Shown here piece after piece: positions 10,006 through 63,628 of a stretch of 64,000 nucleotides of DNA. Below the pieces are notes generated by a model. It did no database searches. It worked only from the letters and a program-made list of their open reading frames with translations, and had not been told where the DNA came from. Position numbers and translations under genes: made by a program. Origin of the DNA: Thalassolituus maritimus (lineage in GTDB: Bacteria; Pseudomonadota; Gammaproteobacteria; Pseudomonadales; Oceanobacteraceae); NCBI GenBank assembly GCA_913019975.1, contig CAJWBH010000009.1, positions 103,838 through 167,837 on the forward strand. The letters run 5' to 3'. How positions within the stretch are numbered: position 1 is the stretch's first letter; each line of letters opens with the position of its first letter.

Positions 10006-10635
10006 ATGTCAGCTCAGGAAACCTTGATTTACACCAACGCCGAGTTCGAAAAGAGCGCCGCTAAATTGAGCCAGTGCCCGACGGACATCATCCGTGAGGT
10101 GGCTTTTGCCGGGCGTTCTAACGCCGGTAAATCCAGTGCGCTCAATACATTAACGGCGAATAAGAAGCTGGCTCGCACCAGTAAAACTCCCGGTCGAACT
10201 CAACTGATCAACTTCTTCCGGCTTGGGGAAAGTAAGCTGGCACTGGTCGATTTGCCAGGCTATGGCTATGCAAAAGTACCGGTCGATAAGAAAAACGAGT
10301 GGCAGAAAGAGCTCGAAACCTACCTGAATCGCCGTCAGGCGCTGTGCGGGCTGGTTCTCCTGATGGACATCCGCCACCCTCTCAAAGACTTCGACAACGC
10401 TATGCTCGACTGGGCTGCAGAAGCCGGTATGCCTGTTCATATCTTGCTGACTAAGTCAGATAAGCTTAAGCGTGGGCCTGCGAAAACGACGTTGTTAAAA
10501 GTTAAAAAGGCCGTTGCTGATCTGGGCGACCTTGTTACGGTCCAGACCTTCTCAAGCCATAACCGTGAGGGGTTAGGTGATCTACAGAGCAAACTGACTC
10601 AGTGGCTGGATGCACCGTTTATTGCTCAGGAATGA
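10006..10635 (+). CDS. engB: Ribosome biogenesis GTP-binding protein EngB (YihA/YsxC)
   Basis: A 209-residue essential GTPase needed for large-subunit assembly. All G motifs are present in order: G1 [10 protein letters not shown]2 [12 protein letters not shown]3 [10 protein letters not shown]4 TKSDKL and G5 FSSHNREG. Length is typical. In Pseudomonas, engB lies directly beside polA with the cytochrome c / dsbA genes on the other side. Here about 6.9 kb separates engB from polA, so the block has been opened by an insertion. Confidence 0.96.
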
Positions 10636-10697: not shown

Positions 10698-12557
10698 TCA
10701 GTCTTTAAAGATAAAGCGTTTGATGAAGTCCTGTTGATCAGGGCGATCCGAAGCGCGAGCAAAAATCAGGTGCGCAGAGGCATGGGATGCTTCTTCAGCG
10801 AATTCACCCTCCCAGATCAGAGGGACGGTTCCAACAACCGGCTTGTAGTGGCGGATACCATAGCCGTCCTCGTCAAAGTCACTCTCAACACGAACATCCG
10901 GCATATCGAACAACGGCTCGCCAACAATTGGCAGGTCAGCCAGGTTAGCGGCAGCAACACTGCTTGAGTTCGGTACGATCGTGTCGCCAGCACCGTTAGT
11001 CAGCATCAGAGGACGAGCCTCATTACCAAGCTGTGGATGACGGAACATATCGATGTAGTTGATCGAGTCACCGTGGTCGAGGGTTTGCTGAATTGCACCA
11101 CGCAGCATAATGGCCTCTGCACCGTTGGCTTCAGAAGGTACCAGACTCGAGAACATAGGAACCCATAGGATCGAGTTAGCCAGAATGCTGGTTACACCTA
11201 CACCCGTCACATGGTACACGCCACCTTTGATAGTAGGGCTGACTGCGCCGTAGGTTGAACCCAGTACGCCGCCGAGTGAAGTACCTTGCATCATGACCTG
11301 AGTGGAGTCTATGTCAGCAACACCGTCGGCTTTGTTACCGTACCAGCTGCGCCAGCTTTTCTTGCCAACTACATCAATGTCCGCCAGAGTGGTTTCCAGT
11401 GCACGATGAGCTGATGCGAAGTCGATCGCGTTCTGGTTAATCATACCCACCGGGATACCCAGCTTATCGGTGCTGACGTTCGCCAACACGTAGCCACCAT
11501 CCGCATCGCCACGCGCGCCGTGGTTTGGAAATCCAATTGAGAAGGTGGCAACGCCGATTTCAGCGTTCATGGTAGATACCACGCCATCACTTTCTTTGTT
11601 AGCGCCCAGACCATGCGCATAAAAAGCAACCGGAGCAGCACCATCGCGCGACGCTGCAGGCAGCGTCAGGCGGAATTCAACCCACTGTTCCATAGGCTCA
11701 GCGTCGTAATCCACGTTGCTCGTACCGTTTTTCATACGATAGTTGTAAACCAGAACTTCACCTTCAACGCGAGCGGCAACGTCACGGTTGGTGTAGTTGT
11801 AAGTCACGTCGAGGTTACGTACTGGGTGTTCGCGATCACGAACGTCAGCAACGGCGTTGAATACTGGCTCGATCACTTCGGCGCGATCGCGAACCAGAAA
11901 GCGGGTGGCGTTACGTACGCTCAACGGATTTACACCGTTGGCCGTCAGAGTGGAGATCAGATCCTGTGTATAGGCACGTTGATCTGCAGTGCCAGATAAA
12001 ATCTTCGATACCAGGCCTGCTTCTGGTGACTCCAGATCCAGATCTGTCGTGATCGCCACTACGATTTCGTGCCCGTATTCCCAGCGAGACTGAGGATAAA
12101 CCTCAACCACATGTGCGGTGCCATTCACTTTATCGGATTGTGAGTACTCACTGATGACGGCACGAACCGGAACCTGACTACCGGTAGTCAGATCGATGGC
12201 GACGACGGCAGCGCCACCATTCTCAGGCAGAGAGGCCGCATCTGGCGCACTGTTAAACTCGAAAACAGCGGCACTGGCAGCGGAAAAACCACTGGCGCCA
12301 TTAAAGATACCTTCCGGAGTAAATCCTTCATCCGCTGGCAACTGAGCCAGTATCTCTGGACGGATCATGGCGTTGGAGACCTGGATGGTCTTACCTGTTG
12401 GGCTCATTGCATCGTCTTCCATCCAGTAAGTCGAAGGGAATGGCAAAGCACAGGTATTCAGAGAGGTTGGGTTACACAGCTCGTCAGCGTAGCTGACCGA
12501 CGCCAGTGCAGTCATCGTGACCGCAAGAGCAGAGCGCATGGTATTGATAGGCTTCAT
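10698..12557 (-). CDS. Secreted alpha/beta-hydrolase (lipase/esterase-like)
   Basis: A 619-residue protein. The start is the ATG at 12557 (MKPINTMRSALAVTM), giving a signal peptide cleaved near VSYADE; a second Met six codons later is also possible. The first ~270 residues form a beta-rich N-terminal region of the kind seen on bacterial 'virulence factor' lipases. The hydrolase core then shows a strand leading to FYAHGLGANKESDG, an oxyanion-hole-like HGLG, and a nucleophile elbow G-T-S-L-G in MQGTSLGGVLG. Late Asp and His candidates lie in LMLTNGAGDTIVPN and in the region EEASHASAHL. Substrate unknown. It is divergent from a Tat-exported GMC oxidoreductase with a 540-bp control region between them; the two might act on the same lipid or steroid-like substrate, which is inference only. 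Confidence 0.75.
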   Translation of the reverse strand: MKPINTMRSALAVTMTALASVSYADELCNPTSLNTCALPFPSTYWMEDDAMSPTGKTIQVSNAMIRPEILAQLPADEGFTPEGIFNGASGFSAASAAVFEFNSAPDAASLPENGGAAVVAIDLTTGSQVPVRAVISEYSQSDKVNGTAHVVEVYPQSRWEYGHEIVVAITTDLDLESPEAGLVSKILSGTADQRAYTQDLISTLTANGVNPLSVRNATRFLVRDRAEVIEPVFNAVADVRDREHPVRNLDVTYNYTNRDVAARVEGEVLVYNYRMKNGTSNVDYDAEPMEQWVEFRLTLPAASRDGAAPVAFYAHGLGANKESDGVVSTMNAEIGVATFSIGFPNHGARGDADGGYVLANVSTDKLGIPVGMINQNAIDFASAHRALETTLADIDVVGKKSWRSWYGNKADGVADIDSTQVMMQGTSLGGVLGSTYGAVSPTIKGGVYHVTGVGVTSILANSILWVPMFSSLVPSEANGAEAIMLRGAIQQTLDHGDSINYIDMFRHPQLGNEARPLMLTNGAGDTIVPNSSSVAAANLADLPIVGEPLFDMPDVRVESDFDEDGYGIRHYKPVVGTVPLIWEGEFAEEASHASAHLIFARASDRPDQQDFIKRFIFKD

Positions 12558-12741
12558 TTCGTCACCATATTTATTTTTGTAGTGTGGTGTTACGTGGCAG
12601 ACCAGTCTCACTTATGCCAGGGCTCACGTATACGATTCTTCGGGCCAGACAGGTCGTAAGAACGGTCTTATATGGCCAAGTATCGGTTAAATTATTCATT
12701 TCAGGGTTGTTGAACACCTGATATAGCCAGAATGAAGCTAA

Positions 12742-12769: not shown

Positions 12770-12829
12770 AAAACGTGATGGATCGCACGGCAAAATTGAA
12801 AATAGGGTCTATAGTTAAAATATTCCTCC

Positions 12830-12951
12830 TGCGATTAAGTGTGATTGAGGTCACTTGAACGCGAAGGGTAGTTCTTTTTCCTTCGGTACTTCCCCCAATG
12901 ATCCGAAGTTGGCCCGACAGTTTCCCCCAATGGCTGCCGGGCCTTTTTTTA
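12830..12951 (+). ncRNA. Candidate small RNA (or leader) with two C-rich loops
   Basis: Two consecutive stem-loops show the same 11-nt sequence TTCCCCCAATG in their loops. Hairpin 1: arms CTTCGG (12881-12886) and CCGAAG (12903-12908), 16-nt loop. Hairpin 2: arms GGCCCGACAG (12911-12920) and CTGCCGGGCC (12934-12943), one A-C mismatch, 13-nt loop, followed by seven T, so it is a strong intrinsic terminator. A further short stem (AAGTG/CACTT) and a CGAAGG segment that could compete for the first hairpin lie upstream. A weak sigma-70-like promoter (TTGAAA at 12796, AT-rich -10 near 12816-12823) precedes it. C-rich loops are used by several sRNA families to pair with ribosome-binding sites. The 5' end is a guess. 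The alternative is an attenuator in the leader of the GMC oxidoreductase gene. Confidence 0.5.
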
Positions 12952-13099: not shown

Positions 13100-14647
13100 A
13101 TGGCCAAGATGAATCGACGTAAGTTCATACAAAGCTCAGCCGCGGCGGGTGTCGCTGCTGCAGCCTCAACTGCTCCAACAGCCAATGCAGGCTGGTTTAC
13201 CAGAACAACTCGTTCGCAGACCAAAGCGCTGGTGATCGGCTCCGGATTTGGTGGCTCAGTTGCCACATTGCGCCTGGCCGAAGCGGGCATTCAGACCATG
13301 CTGCTCGAGCGTGGCAAACACTGGAAATACGAAGGTGAAGGGAGCTACCCAACGCTGGCAGAAACTGGCTCGACTCTGAAGATCAACGACACAGTACTCT
13401 GGACCAACCCAAGCTCACTGATACCGGGCTCCATGGGCATGGTGGAATACTTCGTCGATTCGTCAATCGCTGTGGGCTGTGGTGCCTGCTTAGGCGGCGG
13501 CTCTGTTGTATACGGTGGTGTATTGCTGCAGCCTAAACGAGAAGCCTTCGAAGATGCGCTGCCCATGTTGTCCTACACCGACATGGATCAGGTCTATTAT
13601 CCGCGCGTGCTCGATCGCATCAGTGGCGGTCCGATTCCGGACGATGTACTGAATCACCCGAATTACACATCCAAGCGTGAGTTTATCCAAAGCGCAGAAG
13701 ACGCTGGCCTTGAAGTTGTGCGTAGCCACGTCAGCTTTGACTGGGATGTCATCCGCGAAGAACTTAACGGCACCAAACCACGGTATGCCTCTGTCGGCGA
13801 ATACGTATTCGGCTGCAACAGCGGCGCGAAAAACACTCTCGACCGCAACTATCTGGTCGATGCCGAAGCGACAGGTAACGTCACCATTAGTCCGCAGCAT
13901 CTTGTGACCGATATTCACGCCAACAGTGGCGGTGGCTATCGCGTTACCTGCGACATGCTGGACGAAAAAGGCAAAATCACCGGTAAGCACGTAATTGAGT
14001 GTGACTATCTCTTCATGGGCGCAGGTTCGCTGCACACCACACGTCTGCTGCTGCGCGCAAAAGAACGTGGCGATATTCCGGGCCTGAACGATCAGGTCGG
14101 TGCGGAGTGGGGTACCAACGGTGATGAACTGATGGGCCGTAACGACATCAACACTTCGACTGCACCGATTCAGGGTGGGCCACCATCTATTGCGGCCTTC
14201 GATACCGAAAACCCATATAAGATCACTGGCTACATGCACTCGCCGACATCAGTTGCAAAGGAATTTACTCAGTTACAGATGGGCATGGTGGTGTCAGACG
14301 AAAGCTCCCGCGTGACCTATAACCGCTGGACTGACAAGATAAAACTCAACTGGGATCGTGACGCTAACGAGAACTCCCACAACGCCCTCGTGCACACCAT
14401 GGAAAAAATGGTGCAGAGCGGTGGCGGTAAGATCAACGAAGCAGGTTGGTTCGGCACCTGGCATCCGCTTGGTGGTGTTGCCATGGGCAGTGCCTGTGAC
14501 CTCAGTGGTAAAGTCTACGGGGTAGAAGGTTTGTTCGTGGTCGACGGCGCAGCGATTCCTGGCTCTAGCGGCTCGGCTAACCCGGCCTTGACCATTGCCG
14601 CCAACGCCGAGCGCATGATGGAAGAGATTATTCCGCAGATCAGCTGA
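13100..14647 (+). CDS. Tat-exported GMC-family FAD oxidoreductase (cholesterol oxidase-like)
   Basis: A 515-residue flavoprotein. The start is the ATG at 13100 (MAKMNRRKFIQ); the frame is open back to a GTG at 13046, but the twin-arginine motif NRRKFIQ should lie near the N-terminus. The signal ends near ANAGW. The FAD-binding Rossmann motif is VIGSGFGGSVATLRLAEAG. A second signature region is GCGACLGGGSVVYGG, and the C-terminal GMC_oxred_C motif contains GTWHPLGGVAMG with the catalytic His and a closing DGAAIPGSSGSANPALT segment. The overall pattern is closest to the cholesterol oxidase branch, which oxidises sterols or long-chain alcohols with O2 or another acceptor. Cofactor and export are well supported; the substrate is not. 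Confidence 0.88.
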   Translation: MAKMNRRKFIQSSAAAGVAAAASTAPTANAGWFTRTTRSQTKALVIGSGFGGSVATLRLAEAGIQTMLLERGKHWKYEGEGSYPTLAETGSTLKINDTVLWTNPSSLIPGSMGMVEYFVDSSIAVGCGACLGGGSVVYGGVLLQPKREAFEDALPMLSYTDMDQVYYPRVLDRISGGPIPDDVLNHPNYTSKREFIQSAEDAGLEVVRSHVSFDWDVIREELNGTKPRYASVGEYVFGCNSGAKNTLDRNYLVDAEATGNVTISPQHLVTDIHANSGGGYRVTCDMLDEKGKITGKHVIECDYLFMGAGSLHTTRLLLRAKERGDIPGLNDQVGAEWGTNGDELMGRNDINTSTAPIQGGPPSIAAFDTENPYKITGYMHSPTSVAKEFTQLQMGMVVSDESSRVTYNRWTDKIKLNWDRDANENSHNALVHTMEKMVQSGGGKINEAGWFGTWHPLGGVAMGSACDLSGKVYGVEGLFVVDGAAIPGSSGSANPALTIAANAERMMEEIIPQIS

Positions 14648-14707: not shown

Positions 14708-15010
14708 TCAGATTTCAGGCCTCAGATGTTTTTCGGGTACCATCCGTTTGTGCAACACCGCAAATATCGTGATCCCAGCTTCGGCGCTGAGGTAATAAAT
14801 CACATGGCTACGAAACGGAAAACTGTAGCTTGAAGCACTGACCTCCGGGCGGTGTTTGCCTATTCCGGGATTCTCTGCGAGCGTCTGTAAGCTGGTGCGC
14901 AACGCCATCAGATATTCGCGCGTATGAGGCACTCCCCAGCGCTCATCTGAGTAAACCTTGAGTTGGTGTAAGTCTGCCTGAGCAGCATTCGTGAGCGAGT
15001 AATGAGTCAT
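14708..15010 (-). CDS. Type II toxin, RelE/ParE superfamily
   Basis: A 100-residue ParE-like toxin. It shows the family layout: the N-terminal segment YSLTNAAQADLHQLKVYS, a helix, NPGIGKHRPEV, then the beta-strand pair with FRSHVIYYL and the closing AVLHKRMVPEKHL. ParE-type members inhibit DNA gyrase and RelE-type cut ribosome-bound mRNA; sequence alone does not separate them, though the KRM-PEKHL ending resembles ParE. It lies 30 bp downstream of a Phd/YefM-type antitoxin on the same strand. This pairing is less common than ParD/ParE but is known. It is the first of several toxin modules in 14.7-17.6 kb. Confidence 0.85.
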   Translation of the reverse strand: MTHYSLTNAAQADLHQLKVYSDERWGVPHTREYLMALRTSLQTLAENPGIGKHRPEVSASSYSFPFRSHVIYYLSAEAGITIFAVLHKRMVPEKHLRPEI

Positions 15011-15040
15011 AGCGTTTCAGTAGGGAGTAGGGAGCAGGGG

Positions 15041-15295
15041 TCAATCCTGTTGCGTTAACTCGCTCAGGAAGGCATCGCCATCGGTCGTCAGGCCAGACGC
15101 TACGTCTTTTTCTGCCTGTACCGCTCTCAATTGCAGTAGCTGCAGTTTCAGTTCTTCATTCGAGGCGTAATCTTCCGCCGAAAGCACCACTGCCGCTGGC
15201 TTGCCATTTTTGGTGATCTGCACCGGCTCCCGCTGACTCTGTAATAGTAACTCGCCGAAATGCGTTTTTGCCTGATTGGCAGTCATCTTGTTCAT
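15041..15295 (-). CDS. Type II antitoxin, Phd/YefM family
   Basis: An 84-residue antitoxin. The start is the ATG at 15295 (MNKMTANQAKTHFGELL); an upstream TTG at 15358 is in frame but adds residues that do not fit the family. The N-terminal Phd fold is clear: ANQAKTHFGELLLQSQREP, VQITKNGKPAAVVLSAEDY. The C-terminal ~35 residues form the acidic toxin-neutralising tail. It should bind its own promoter and the ParE-like toxin encoded 30 bp downstream. It is divergent from the second module, with 117 bp between the two antitoxin starts. Confidence 0.85.
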   Translation of the reverse strand: MNKMTANQAKTHFGELLLQSQREPVQITKNGKPAAVVLSAEDYASNEELKLQLLQLRAVQAEKDVASGLTTDGDAFLSELTQQD

Positions 15296-15370
15296 ATCGT
15301 TCAAACCATGCGAATCGTTTGATTTGGTTAGTTTGCAGCCAATTGACCCGTCGATCAAGTCACCGCTATT

Positions 15371-15392
15371 ATCCTACTAAGTAGTATAAAAG
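15371..15392. promoter_or_regulatory. Palindromic operator/promoter between divergent TA modules
   Basis: CTACTAAGTAG (15374-15384) is an imperfect palindrome that runs into TATAAA, a -10-like box. It sits 30 bp before the ParD start. Antitoxins of both modules repress their own promoters, so this is the likely site for ParD binding. Confidence 0.45.
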
Positions 15393-15412
15393 AGTATTGG
15401 AGTAACCTTTTT

Positions 15413-15679
15413 ATGGCCATGGTCAAAAAGAGCATTACCGTCACCGATCAGCAGGATGCCTGGCTCAAAGCCCAGATCAGTGCCGGGCATTACGGCAACG
15501 AAAGCGAAGTGCTGCGCGAGCTGATTCGTGAGCGTCAGCTCAGAGAACAGGAAGCCCAACGGGAAGTTGAGTGGATTCGGGCGCGCCTTGTTGAAGGTGA
15601 ACGCAGCGGCTTCACAGATCAGACACCGGCAGAGATACTGCAGGAAATCAAAAACGGATTAGGACGGGATGACCTATAA
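15413..15679 (+). CDS. parD: Type II antitoxin, ParD family
   Basis: An 88-residue antitoxin of the ParD/CopG class. The N-terminal ribbon-helix-helix is VKKSITVTDQQDAWLKAQI, followed by the ParD signature GHYGNESEVLRELIRERQ. The C-terminal region, rich in charged residues and ending EILQEIKNGLGRDDL, would wrap the toxin. The ATG at 15413 is followed by a second Met two codons later; the ribosome site TTGGAGTAACC supports the first. It overlaps the parE gene by 11 bp, the usual translational coupling. Confidence 0.9.
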   Translation: MAMVKKSITVTDQQDAWLKAQISAGHYGNESEVLRELIRERQLREQEAQREVEWIRARLVEGERSGFTDQTPAEILQEIKNGLGRDDL

Positions 15680-15965
15680 AATAAGTAAACAAGCGAAGAT
15701 GGATCTTGCGCGGATTTACTGGTTTGGCGTTCGGGAGTTTGGCGACGCTCAGGCCGAGAAGTATTACAACGCATTGATTGGAAGATTCGAGTCCATTGCA
15801 GAGAATCCATTAACCTACCCAATGGTTGATCATGTCCGGTTGGGCTATCGGCGCTGCGTATGTGGTGCGGATAGCATCTACTATCAGATCAATAATGGCT
15901 ACGTAGAGATCATGCGAGTGCTGGGTAGGCAGAACACGACGAGTGAGATACCGGCAGAACACTAA
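15669..15965 (+). CDS. parE: Type II toxin, ParE family
   Basis: A 98-residue ParE toxin. Family features: the opening YKISKQAKMDLARIYWFGVREFGDAQAEKYY, the central NPLTYPMVDHVRLGYRRCVCG, and the strand pair DSIYYQINNGYVEIMRVLGRQ. ParE poisons DNA gyrase and blocks replication. It overlaps parD by 11 bp. With the divergent module on the other side, two complete TA pairs lie back to back. Confidence 0.9.
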   Translation: MTYKISKQAKMDLARIYWFGVREFGDAQAEKYYNALIGRFESIAENPLTYPMVDHVRLGYRRCVCGADSIYYQINNGYVEIMRVLGRQNTTSEIPAEH

Positions 15966-16003
15966 AAAATAGCGCAAATGATTAACCGATCAGCGGATGG
16001 CCT

Positions 16004-16249
16004 ATGAAAACAATCCCGTTTACCGAAGCGAGAGACAATTTTAATAACGTACTTGATCAGGTTGTTAACGACGCAGAGCCCATCGTTATCAATGGCTCTG
16101 GTGAAGGCGTCGTGGTGGTGATGTCTCTCCATGATTACAGCAGCCTGATGGAAACGGTACATTTGCTGCGTTCAGCAAACAACTCCGCGCACTTAGGTCG
16201 TTCTATCGCGCAGTATAAAGGACGAATTGGCAGTCCGAAGGATCAATGA
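16004..16249 (+). CDS. yefM: Type II antitoxin, YefM family, apparently without a complete toxin
   Basis: An 81-residue YefM-type antitoxin: MKTIPFTEARDNFNNVLDQV, EPIVINGSGEGVVVVMSLHDYSS, and LMETVHLLRSANNSAHLGRSI, which is the YefM pattern for binding YoeB. A complete YoeB/Txe gene should follow or overlap, but there is none. Only a short stretch resembling the YoeB C-terminus is found (see next entry). It lies 38 bp after parE on the same strand and may be read from the parDE promoter. Confidence 0.82.
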   Translation: MKTIPFTEARDNFNNVLDQVVNDAEPIVINGSGEGVVVVMSLHDYSSLMETVHLLRSANNSAHLGRSIAQYKGRIGSPKDQ

Positions 16250-17554: not shown

Positions 17555-17580
17555 AAAAACAGGCGCTTAATGCGCCTGTT
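17555..17580 (-). terminator. polA terminator overlapping the stop codon
   Basis: On the minus strand ACAGGCGC pairs with GCGCCTGT, and the loop contains the polA TAA stop; five T follow. The terminator is therefore partly inside the coding sequence and ends next to the convergent immunity gene stop. Confidence 0.75.
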
Positions 17581-20386
17581 CCCAGTTATCCCCAATACCC
17601 ACATCCACAATGAGCGGCACGTCTAACGTCGCTGCGCATTGCATCTGGGTTTTCAGTTCTACCGCAAAGGTTTCGGCCTGATCTTCGCGTACTTCAAGGA
17701 TCAGTTCATCGTGTACCTGCATCAGCAGTTTGGCGTCGTAGCCTGAGGCTGGCAGCCATTCGTGTACGCGGATCATTGCGCGTTTAATGATGTCGGCGGC
17801 GGTGCCTTGCATGGGCGCGTTGATCGCGGTGCGTTCGGCATGTTGGTGGCGCTGGACGTTGGATGAACGGATATCCGGCAGGTACAGACGGCGGCCGTAG
17901 AGAGTTTCAACGTAGCCCTGTTCTTTCGCTTGTTCGCGGGTGTTGTCCATGTATTCGCGCACGCCCGGATAACGCTCGAAGTATTTACTCACGTAATCCT
18001 GGGCTTCGCCACGGGCAATGCCGAGCTGCTTGGCTAAGCCAAAGGCTGACATGCCGTAAATCAGACCGAAGTTAATCGCTTTGGCGCTGCGACGCTGATT
18101 GTCGGTGACGTCTTCTTCTTTCTCGCCAAAGACTTCGGCGGCAGTCGCGCGGTGAACGTCGCGGTCTTCCGCAAAGGCGCTGACTAAGCCTTGGTCACCT
18201 GATAAGTGCGCCATGATTCTTAGTTCAATCTGGCTGTAATCGGCCGCGACCAGTTTGTAGCCTTCTGGGGCAATAAACGCCTGACGGATCTTGCGGCCTT
18301 CTTCTGAACGGATCGGAATATTCTGCAAATTCGGGTCAGTCGACGATAAACGACCAGTAGCTGCCACGGCCTGATGGTAAGACGTGTGCACCCGACCGGT
18401 TTTGCTGTTCATCATTAATGGTAGCTTGTCGGTGTAGGTACTTTTTAGTTTGGCCAGTCCGCGATTTTCAAGAATAAGACGCGGCAGCTCGTATTCTTCG
18501 GCGAGTTCCTGCAGCACTTCTTCAGCGGTTGAAGGCGCGCCTTTCGGTGTCTTTTTAACAACCGGCAGGCCCTGCTTCTCAAACAGGATTTCGGCTAACT
18601 GTTTTGGTGAACCCAGGTTAAATACCTGACCGGCGCTGTCGTGGGCAGCGCGCTCCAATTCCTGCAGGCGTTGTTCAATCTGAGCGCTTTGCTCGTGGAG
18701 CTTTTCTGCGTCGATTAAGGCGCCGTTCTCTTCCATTTCGAACAGTACCGGCATGACCGGCATTTCGATGTCTTTAAAGACTTTGGATTGCGCTTTACGG
18801 GCAGCCAGCTGCGGCCACAGCATCTGATGCAGGCGCAGCGTGATGTCGGCGTCTTCAGCGGCATACGGGCCTGCTTCTTCAATGCCGATCTGGTTAAAGG
18901 TCAGCTGTTTTGCTCCTTTGCCTGCGATGTCTTCGTACTTAACGGTTTTATGGCCGAGGTACTTGAGTGACAGGCTGTCCATGTCATGCTTAGTCGCGAC
19001 GGAATCCAGCACATAGGATTCAAGCATGGTATCGAATTCCACGCCTTTTAACTGGATGCCATAATTCGCTAATACATGCGCATCGTATTTCATATGCTGG
19101 CCGACTTTTTTCAGATTTTTATCGTCTAAGATCGGCTTTAACTGTGCGAGCACGGCATCGCGGTCGAGTTGTTCAGGTGCGCCTGCATAGTCGTGGGCCA
19201 GTGGTACGTAGGCGGCTTTGCCTGCCTCAGTACAAAAAGACACGCCGACAATTTCGGCGTCTTTATAATTCAGCGACGTAGTCTCGGTATCGAAGGCGAA
19301 TAATTCGCTGGATTTTAATTGATCGATCCAGTGATCAAGCTCGGCCTGTTCGAAAAGTATTTCGTATTCGCCTTTGCCAGAAAATACCTCGGGCGTTGGA
19401 ATATTTTCTTCGTCGTCAGATTCAGCTGCAGCCGAAGATTTAGCCGAGGAGCTGGCAGCACTTGCTGCGACTTTGGCCGCTACTTTTGAGGCTATGTCGT
19501 CACCCACTTCATCCGACAGCTCGGCGATCCAGGCTTTGAATTCCATATCGCGGAATAAGCCCAGTAGAGTTTCCTGATCCGGCTCGATACTTTTGATTTC
19601 GGTCAGGCTTTGCTCAAGTTCAACGTCGCACTTAATGGTCGCGAGTTCTTTCGACAGGAAGGCCTGATCTTTGTGTTCTTCGAGCTTTGGGGCGAGGGTT
19701 TTTGCGCCACGGAAGCTCAGCTCTTTGACTTTATCGAGGTTGGCGTAGATATCTTCGAGGGAGCCTAAACCGGCAACCAGGCCGACGGCGGTTTTTTCAC
19801 CGACTTTGGGCACGCCGGGAATGTTATCGACTTTGTCGCCCATAAGTGCGAGGTAGTCGATGATGTGCTCTGGCGGTACGCCGAATTTTTCTTTCACGCC
19901 TTCTACATCCATAAACACGTCGTTCATGGTGTTGATCAGGGAGACGTGTTCGTTCACCAGCTGGGCCATGTCTTTATCGCCGGTGGATACGATTACGTCC
20001 TGTTTGTGTTCTAACGCCTGCGCGGCGAGGGTGCCGATCACGTCGTCGGCTTCAACGCCGTCGATAATTAACAGCGGCAGGCCCATGGCGCGGATGATGT
20101 TATGAATCGGTTCAATCTGCTCGCGCAGTTCGTCTGGCATGGGCGGGCGGTGCGCTTTGTATTCCGGGTAGATGTCGTTTCGGAAGGTTTTGCCTTTGGC
20201 ATCGAAAATCACGATGACCTGAGACTCCGGGTAATCTTTGTTGAGCCGCTTCACCATACTGATCACGCCCTTGATGGCGTTGGTGTGAAGACCTTTGGAG
20301 TTGGTCAGCATCGGGATCGCGTGAAATGCACGGAACAGGTACGACGACCCATCAACAAGAATCACAGGTTTTGCGGTCTCAGACAT
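17567..20386 (-). CDS. polA: DNA polymerase I
   Basis: A 939-residue repair and Okazaki-fragment polymerase. The N-terminal 5'-3' exonuclease domain (residues ~1-300) has VDGSSYLFRAFHA, DGVEADDVIGTLA and STGDKDMAQLV. The 3'-5' exonuclease domain keeps the D-x-E motif in FAFDTETTSL, so proofreading should be active. The polymerase domain has motif A in AADYSQIELRIMAHLSG, the O-helix with RRSAKAINFGLIYGMSA and motif C in MQVHDELILEV. An Ala/Ser-rich linker (AAKVAASAASSSAKSSAAA) near residue 300 joins the two exonuclease domains and makes it slightly longer than the E. coli protein. Divergent from the DUF2782 gene and thrB, as in other gammaproteobacteria. Confidence 0.98.
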   Translation of the reverse strand: MSETAKPVILVDGSSYLFRAFHAIPMLTNSKGLHTNAIKGVISMVKRLNKDYPESQVIVIFDAKGKTFRNDIYPEYKAHRPPMPDELREQIEPIHNIIRAMGLPLLIIDGVEADDVIGTLAAQALEHKQDVIVSTGDKDMAQLVNEHVSLINTMNDVFMDVEGVKEKFGVPPEHIIDYLALMGDKVDNIPGVPKVGEKTAVGLVAGLGSLEDIYANLDKVKELSFRGAKTLAPKLEEHKDQAFLSKELATIKCDVELEQSLTEIKSIEPDQETLLGLFRDMEFKAWIAELSDEVGDDIASKVAAKVAASAASSSAKSSAAAESDDEENIPTPEVFSGKGEYEILFEQAELDHWIDQLKSSELFAFDTETTSLNYKDAEIVGVSFCTEAGKAAYVPLAHDYAGAPEQLDRDAVLAQLKPILDDKNLKKVGQHMKYDAHVLANYGIQLKGVEFDTMLESYVLDSVATKHDMDSLSLKYLGHKTVKYEDIAGKGAKQLTFNQIGIEEAGPYAAEDADITLRLHQMLWPQLAARKAQSKVFKDIEMPVMPVLFEMEENGALIDAEKLHEQSAQIEQRLQELERAAHDSAGQVFNLGSPKQLAEILFEKQGLPVVKKTPKGAPSTAEEVLQELAEEYELPRLILENRGLAKLKSTYTDKLPLMMNSKTGRVHTSYHQAVAATGRLSSTDPNLQNIPIRSEEGRKIRQAFIAPEGYKLVAADYSQIELRIMAHLSGDQGLVSAFAEDRDVHRATAAEVFGEKEEDVTDNQRRSAKAINFGLIYGMSAFGLAKQLGIARGEAQDYVSKYFERYPGVREYMDNTREQAKEQGYVETLYGRRLYLPDIRSSNVQRHQHAERTAINAPMQGTAADIIKRAMIRVHEWLPASGYDAKLLMQVHDELILEVREDQAETFAVELKTQMQCAATLDVPLIVDVGIGDNWEQAH

Positions 20387-28862: not shown

Positions 28863-28919
28863 GGCTGTCGCGTAGCTGCGCATGGCGCGCAATGTATGAA
28901 TTGTCGTGCAGTATCGACT

Positions 28920-29018
28920 GCCTTCCCATTCCTACGCCGGTACTAACCGGATCAGGTTCCGGGGTTTAAGCTTGAAGCTAATCTCAGGCTGCACTCGGCA
29001 ACCTCCCCCTGGGTATGG
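28920..29018 (-). promoter_or_regulatory. TPP (THI-box) riboswitch
   Basis: On the minus strand the conserved THI-box elements occur in order: GGGGGAG, a variable stem, CCTGAGA (complement of 28982-28988), a variable P3a region, CCCCGGAACCTGATC, then TTAGTACCGGCGTAGG and GAATGGGAAGG closing P1. These match the TPP aptamer consensus (CUGAGA; ACCUGAUC; GNNAGUACCNGCGUAGGGAA type). The receptor start codon lies about 100 nt downstream. When TPP is plentiful, expression of the receptor and the following thiamine genes should fall. No strong intrinsic terminator is seen between aptamer and start, so control is probably translational. Confidence 0.9.
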
Positions 29019-29144
29019 CGCATGGTAACTAAGCGTCAACACCACTGTCATCACCTTTTTTTACACTCACTATCTATTGATATGCGGGCGTAAAACCCTC
29101 ATAACCAGTGTCAGACCCTTACTTGATTAGCGGAGAGCACAAAG

Positions 29145-63221: not shown

Positions 63222-63628
63222 TATGCGAAATTGAAAGGTGGGCGACAAGCAAAACTCACAACGGATTAACTGGTTGATAGGCCCTACATAACCACACTTG
63301 AAGCACCGTGAGGTGTCGGGATGGGCGAACAGGAGTCAGCAGAGGCCATATTAGGCTCTCTAACCAAGAGCTGAAGGGCTGAACCTGTCACGAGTGGATA
63401 GTTGACCACTCTCTGATGTGTACGAGCAGAAGCCTCCCCGGAGGGCTCTCGATAACTGTATGGCGGGCCGGAAGCCCAAAGACTGTCGAAGCGCTCAGAG
63501 CACACAGGCGAGCGAATTCAGCGGAACGAAGCTCAGCCCGATAATGGGGGACAGGAACCGCCGTGGTACGGATCCGTTTGCCCGGTGGTGTGAGAGGACG
63601 GGGGAGGCGACTCCCCCTCCTACTCGAT
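63222..63628 (+). mobile_element. ORF-less group II intron (remnant)
   Basis: About 410 nt with no gene but with strong RNA structure. It begins near a TGCG (a GTGCG-type 5' end), passes GCGACAAGCAAAACTC and GAAGCACCGTGAGGTG, then GGCGGGCCGGAAGCCC, and ends with GTGGTACGGATCC, GGTGGTGTGAGAGGACG, a GGGGGAGGCGACTCCCCC hairpin and CTCCTACTCGAT. The last elements look like domain V and domain VI followed by the usual TACTCGAT-type 3' end of bacterial group II introns. The reverse transcriptase/maturase that normally sits in domain IV is absent. A short frame at 63418-63675 reads through the intron and is not a gene. Boundaries are approximate. Confidence 0.55.

Follow-up and report, generated by a model that had tools for sequence, protein, structure and literature searches.

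A probable Thalassolituus-family form of the C-rich-loop small RNAs of the polA–engB gap

The small RNA (sRNA) ErsA (Pseudomon-1, RF01719) lies in the gap between polA and engB (PMC8575079). It is described as a 132-nt RNA that depends on sigma-22 and represses oprD (PMC7565897), and a review adds repression of algC by pairing at the ribosome-binding site, with Hfq (PMC6321483). sX13 of the Xanthomonadaceae (RF02232) is reported always to lie downstream of polA, to carry C-rich hairpin loops (C4–C5, the third loop included) and to repress messages with G-rich starts; its authors ask whether the polA loci of other bacteria harbour sRNAs (PMC3771888). Spot 42 (spf) has likewise been placed between polA and yihA/engB (PMC3295665). 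Double-hairpin RNAs with CU-rich loops are predicted to act at ribosome sites, an action described as shown for one target of S17 (PMC5688073, PMC11722255). The open-access library searched yielded no paper naming both sX13 and ErsA, nor did we find in it a link of these two with the RNA described here; on Thalassolituus and small RNA nothing related came up, judged by title.

We analysed a 64-kb stretch of the Thalassolituus maritimus genome (64,000 nucleotides, hereafter the window), in which 12822–12950 (+) is very probably a genuine sRNA gene: a covariance model of the region matches 40 of the 44 genomes of the Thalassolituus family, stem 2 of the predicted structure covaries and a −10 box is conserved upstream. 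With a probability of roughly 0.8, we read it as a stand-alone, trans-acting sRNA, the Thalassolituus-family form of the polA/engB C-rich-loop sRNAs (ErsA, sX13), repressing messages with G-run starts. A first-pass annotation of this DNA had proposed a regulatory RNA whose C-rich loops are aimed at G-rich starts, and these three results, together with a position and design like those of ErsA and sX13, support that proposal. Like ErsA, the RNA lies in the polA–engB gap (with other genes inserted), has a C-rich terminator loop and a predicted length of about 130 nt. With sX13 it shares the address beside polA, hairpin loops with runs of four to five C and the proposed repression of G-rich starts. 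It differs in that sX13 lies downstream of polA and has three C-rich loops, whereas the window RNA has two, plus a variable 5′ stem whose loop lacks a C run. Spot 42 shares the polA–yihA/engB address, but to our knowledge has no C-rich twin loops, and it is absent among the eight Rfam matches of the window up to E = 10.

The 11-mer TTCCCCCAATG occurs exactly at 12890–12900 and 12922–12932 (both +), which we presume to be pairing sites 1 and 2, and the rest of the 64 kb contains no place within one mismatch of it. The count alone carries little information, because 0.96 such places are expected and two or more arise in 27 of 100 window shuffles; what is odd about the twin 11-mers is their exactness and adjacency, not the number of copies. 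Taken alone, an 11-nt repeat is a moderate oddity, an exact repeat of at least that length appearing in 14 of 5,000 dinucleotide shuffles of the 122-nt region.

Folding places the first copy in hairpin 1 (12881–12908, +), whose stem CTTCGG/CCGAAG pairs 12881–12886 with 12903–12908 around a 16-nt loop, TACTTCCCCCAATGAT. The second copy falls in hairpin 2 (12911–12943; GGCCCG-a-CAGTT/GGCTG-c-CGGGCC), with arms GGCCCGaCAGTT...GGCTGcCGGGCC and seven T directly 3′ of it at 12944–12950. The loop of hairpin 2 is the 9-nt TCCCCCAAT, so the outer letters of the 11-mer sit in the stem, as U–G pairs. Hairpin and T run together (12911–12950, +) form a predicted intrinsic terminator with the second C run in its loop; a simple terminator scan reported no terminator, its loop limit of 8 being smaller than the 9-nt loop. 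By folding, the 122-nt region is more stable than its shuffles (z −2.06; 4 of 200 equally good). The earlier description of one 11-nt loop carried by two adjacent hairpins with different stems, the second running into seven T, is accurate. Folds of 21 whole transcripts contain additional, variable 5′ structure, here a stem-loop at 12831–12862 (+) whose detail differs between folds. It encloses a palindrome, TGTGA-N6-TCACT (12840–12855), which by eye resembles a CRP site. We rejected CRP control of the RNA: the palindrome makes up the 5′ stem, inside the transcript as predicted, and only the nearest relatives keep it, so we leave it as chance or as stem.

A DNA search with the window stretch found matches in 20 of 55 genomes (its own included), all within the Thalassolituus family as grouped by the genome tool (f1; 44 genomes). 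The covariance model was built from 19 of these 20 sequences, one duplicate being omitted (L019, identical to L018, is absent from alignment A2, in which MAFFT also misplaced hairpin 2 of L017, by eye). Its 40 matching family genomes, of which 19 are model members and match by construction, have a worst best-E of 2.9e-13. Of the four family genomes with no match, two are incomplete genus-mates, a third is fragmented and the last, G011, is nearly complete; weaker second matches occur in two genomes. Order-wide, 63 of 293 genomes match the family model at E ≤ 0.01.

RNAalifold, with no structure supplied, recovered exactly the two hairpins. Among the 19 sequences, 8 of the 12 pairs that make up stem 2 have changed on both sides, compensatorily. 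Taken over the entire structure, covariation scores 0.252 where shuffles average 0.140 and none of 500 is as high; the score falls to at most 0.106 when the partner is slid by one to three columns; a measure of further pair types was not above shuffles, 467 of 500 being as high. Stem 1 is nearly constant (5 of 6 pairs never vary over the 19 sequences), and covariation is consequently uninformative about it. The TCCCC of loop 1 is invariant across the 19 aligned sequences. Over 30 family loci, CCCC is present in loop 1 in 29 (as a run of C4–5; L107, where this first run is broken, is the exception) and in loop 2 in 27, the second run being lost in L018, L019 and L107. The two loops share their exact 11-nt identity in only three of these loci, and in the other 27 the longest common word is 3–9 letters. 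Exact identity of the two loops is thus a local trait, and the lasting one is the C4–5 run in loop 1. The first-pass annotation had held that the loop is kept while the stem is free to change, and had proposed looking for covariation with conserved twin loops in relatives. Its first idea fits hairpin 2, whose stem changes, but not hairpin 1, whose stem is practically invariant; on the second, stem 2 does covary, although the twin loops are exact in those three loci alone. An open reading frame running through both loops was also considered and rejected, because one-base insertions in each loop of L004 would shift the frame.

The predicted promoter (12787–12815, +) consists of a weak −35-like ACGGCA (12787–12792, identified by eye), a 17-nt spacer and a −10 box, TATAGT (12810–12815). 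From this box the start would lie near 12822, which, with the end taken from the T run, gives a predicted transcript of about 129 nt (12822–12950, +); the gene therefore probably begins about 60 bases 5′ of hairpin 1. The pattern [TG]CTATA[GT]T precedes 23 of the 30 family loci, where shuffles would give 0.67, and none of 36 loci outside the family, of which 35 adjoin polA or engB and one, L056, adjoins cytochrome c only. This comparison omitted L019, L053, L057, L059, L061, L119, L124 and L127. Conversely, GAACT-N14..19-GTC, which we take to have the look of a sigma-E/sigma-22 promoter, precedes 21 of the 36 outside loci (0.46 expected) versus 3 of the 30 family loci, one of them (L005) off position by eye and the other two from a single genus, g3. 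Seven of the 30 family loci have plain GAACT, close to the 5.1 expected, and upstream of the window sRNA (sequence L001) there is none. In L018 and L105 (g2), GGAACTT precedes TTCTATA at roughly the spacing of a −35 element, which by eye may be a promoter intermediate. Sequence comparison suggests, then, that in the Thalassolituus lineage a sigma-E-like GAACT...GTC promoter has mostly been replaced by the TATAGT type.

One border of the conserved locus is engB (yihA/ysxC; GTPase, 10006–10635, +) and the other polA (DNA polymerase I, 17570–20383, −), on the strand opposite to the sRNA and identified by tblastn with a relative's polA (61% identity, residues 3–901). Between engB and the sRNA lies a 637-aa ORF (10698–12611, −), presumably a lipase; reading from its inner ATG gives a 619-aa protein without a Pfam match. 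Six of the 19 relatives' loci, each belonging to genus g1, contain a match to this ORF, which in L024 is not between engB and the sRNA. On the other side, a GMC oxidoreductase (13100–14647, +; PF05199/PF00732) is a lineage-specific neighbour outside the sRNA unit, and the run of small ORFs between it and polA (14708–16249) looks to us like toxin–antitoxin-type modules (ParE/Phd-like). Elsewhere in the window we noted a TPP riboswitch (28912–29019, −; 66.5 bits) and a match to Group II intron D1-D4-1 (63297–63379, +; 56.2 bits).

Orientation sets this locus apart. The sRNA lies 3′ of engB and on its strand in all 19 relatives' loci examined, and wherever polA is within reach (12 of the 19) it is on the opposite strand. 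Across the 32 family genomes with a visible neighbour (the window counted), 28 have this engB-strand orientation, and in the four exceptions, all of genus g6, the sRNA shares the strand of polA or has the strand opposite to that of engB. Of 21 loci from outside the family fetched with the family model, 18 adjoin polA or engB (the other three being L119, L124 and L127), and all 18 have this second orientation, as do 16/16 RF01719 class loci and 23/23 anti-hemB loci (RF02837, 'Burkholderia RNA 7'). Given so uniform an outside orientation, the flip is special to the Thalassolituus family among the loci seen. In an engB tree, the 24 inverted loci of g1, g2, g5, g7 and g8 group together with support (100/99), and g6 and the inverted g3 fall outside that group; the tree is midpoint-rooted for drawing only and is compatible with one strand flip or two.

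At Rfam cut-offs the window RNA belongs to no family. It scores 22.2 bits with RF02278 (its best), 17.8 with RF02232 and 14.6 with RF01719, all with cut-offs of 50, and 11.7 with anti-hemB RF02837 (cut-off 49.5). Eleven family loci were scanned, giving best scores of 26.2 bits for RF01719 (L008) and 26.1 for RF02232 (L017), again with cut-offs of 50. RF02278 denotes the Betaproteobacteria toxic sRNA, which we group with the double-hairpin RNAs ncS27 and Bordetella S17. The likeness is in the two hairpins with CU-rich loops; the address differs, since S17 is described by coq7 and not in the polA–engB gap, and several copies are described per Burkholderia genome. The remark in the earlier note that no named family could be recognized is right at these cut-offs, though near relatives do carry names, ErsA and sX13.

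We searched 274 class genomes with the three models of the gap; the genome sets overlap, so the counts are not independent, and the genome of the window itself was matched by none of the three at the thresholds used. With RF01719 a single match exceeded the cut-off, at 121 bits downstream of polA (L040); it lies on the polA strand behind a GAACT...GTC motif, unlike the inverted window gene with its TATAGT box. Of 21 further RF01719 matches below cut-off, 16 adjoin polA or engB. RF02837 at E ≤ 0.001 matched 123 genomes, 13 of them over cut-off, and 23 of the 30 loci fetched adjoin polA or engB, a likeness to the window gene in address, with opposite orientation. The same model also matches 3 of 14 control genomes at E ≤ 0.001, below cut-off, and for its matches it is position, not E, that carries the argument. 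RF02232 matched 12 genomes, seven at the polA/engB locus, including both over cut-off. Among the matches listed, at least 12 of the 21 sub-cut-off ErsA matches overlap anti-hemB matches. Because three family models match one gap across Gammaproteobacteria, often on the same bases, they look like one gene, and the window RNA shares with this wider group the gap, a C-rich loop in both a hairpin and the terminator, and cross-matches between models.

Two side observations arose from these searches. Of the three outside loci that do not adjoin polA or engB, the two scanned look like RgsA: L124 (1352–1566, 76.5 bits) and L119 (1332–1570, 34.6 bits), both below the cut-off of 88.4; the same places were found by the window's family model and also have C-rich loops in their terminators. 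Two to four adjacent anti-hemB model matches per locus occur in G224 (C33:13148–13886), G316 (C3:217579–218301), G315 (C1:2994116–2994385) and G204 (C7:32511–32782), apparently tandem sRNA copies.

The RNA most likely represses messages with a G-rich ribosome site, by analogy with ErsA and sX13, and an OmpA/OprF-family porin is the best candidate target on sequence. ATTGGGGGA is found at 14 places in the genome, two being the antisense of the loops themselves and another the ribosome site, GATTGGGGGATTGATTATG, that precedes a gene of the OmpA/OprF family. TTGGGG(G)A precedes the ATG of this gene and of its four close genus orthologues (73–98% identity; 5/5). It is absent before the start of the homologues of 42–46% identity examined (L172, L173, L182–L186), and a homologue of 40% identity (L174) has AGGGGAA; a match of at least 73% identity to the OmpA-family protein exists in only 5 of 42 genomes. 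The predicted duplex of the loop with this start reaches −20.6 kcal/mol, a value that ignores the internal folding of each RNA and includes a long bulge. One of 42 window gene starts scores as low, and since the gene was chosen by the motif its duplex score is not independent. We also compared the target pattern TTGGGGRAN{3,12}ATG with a reversed-pattern control in four genomes and saw no consistent genome-wide excess (23 versus 10, 8 versus 16, 16 versus 18 and 26 versus 12). Start-like hits before ORFs of at least 70 aa in these genomes included one recurring orthologous pair, L163/L192 (57% identity; presumably an AraC-like regulator), and a second, distant pair, L212/L229 (27% identity; presumably TonB-type receptors). 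Complementarity of coding starts to the loops, for which the first-pass annotation had proposed a search, is thus seen at the OmpA/OprF ribosome site and in its four orthologues, but not as a consistent excess across genomes.

A different role had also been put forward for the two hairpins: they would form a cis-acting leader or attenuator for the GMC oxidoreductase gene, in which their pairing switches read-through. In the window, GMC does begin about 150 bases past the terminator, and 6 of 19 relatives' loci (L021–L024, L031, L033) have a GMC match close to the RNA. Yet the RNA is still conserved in the 13 loci (about 16 kb each) that have no GMC match, and in four loci (L034, L036–L038) it is polA, on the other strand, that directly follows it. 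Complementarity between the GMC start and the loops is weak (−7.4 kcal/mol, against a mean of −10.9 for 42 window starts), the predicted folds contain no alternative pairing between the two hairpins, and the RNA has a predicted promoter of its own. With GMC unmatched in most of these loci and its start poorly complementary to the loops, we reject this role as extremely improbable.

In much of the family the element lies where polA and engB converge, and hairpin 2 is a good terminator by predicted fold; both would suit a mere tandem terminator that serves the two converging genes and has no function as RNA. Such an element sits poorly with a conserved promoter box about 65 bases 5′ of hairpin 1, with a hairpin 1 that lacks a T run yet keeps a nearly invariant stem, and with loops that are kept while stem 2 varies; on the polA strand, moreover, no T run follows hairpin 2, by eye. 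Stem 2 covariation and the conserved promoter box led us to reject a plain double terminator, which we consider very improbable. It is also improbable, if less so, that the RNA acts not as an antisense repressor but as a sponge, or by binding a protein (Hfq or a CsrA-like one), even though a pair of repeated loops in one molecule is reminiscent of sRNAs that titrate proteins, and C-rich loops could serve as a decoy for G-rich RNAs. Csr/Rsm sponges would carry GGA, and by eye the predicted transcript has none. The relatives ErsA and sX13, for their part, are described as message repressors (PMC6321483, PMC3771888).

As a trans-acting repressor, the RNA would be transcribed from the TATAGT promoter, starting near 12822 and stopping at 12950, and would expose UUCCCCC(AAUG) as unpaired bases twice, in hairpin 1 and in the loop of the terminator. 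Pairing of either loop with the G-run UUGGGG(G)A in a target's ribosome site would then block translation start. Being inverted with respect to polA and mostly without a sigma-E-like promoter, the sRNA of the Thalassolituus lineage is probably no longer under envelope-stress control. We would give even odds to a broader history in which ErsA, sX13, anti-hemB and the window RNA, perhaps with Spot 42, descend from one ancient polA–engB gene that in this family flipped strand, exchanged an envelope-stress for a housekeeping promoter and was rewired to a new signal.

The candidate sRNA would extend to a lineage of marine bacteria a regulator already described in Pseudomonas and Xanthomonas, and bears on the question, posed in the sX13 paper (PMC3771888), of whether sRNAs reside at the polA loci of other bacteria. 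It suggests that several Rfam families may be one gene, and would offer a natural case of an sRNA that changed both strand and promoter class while retaining its pairing loops.
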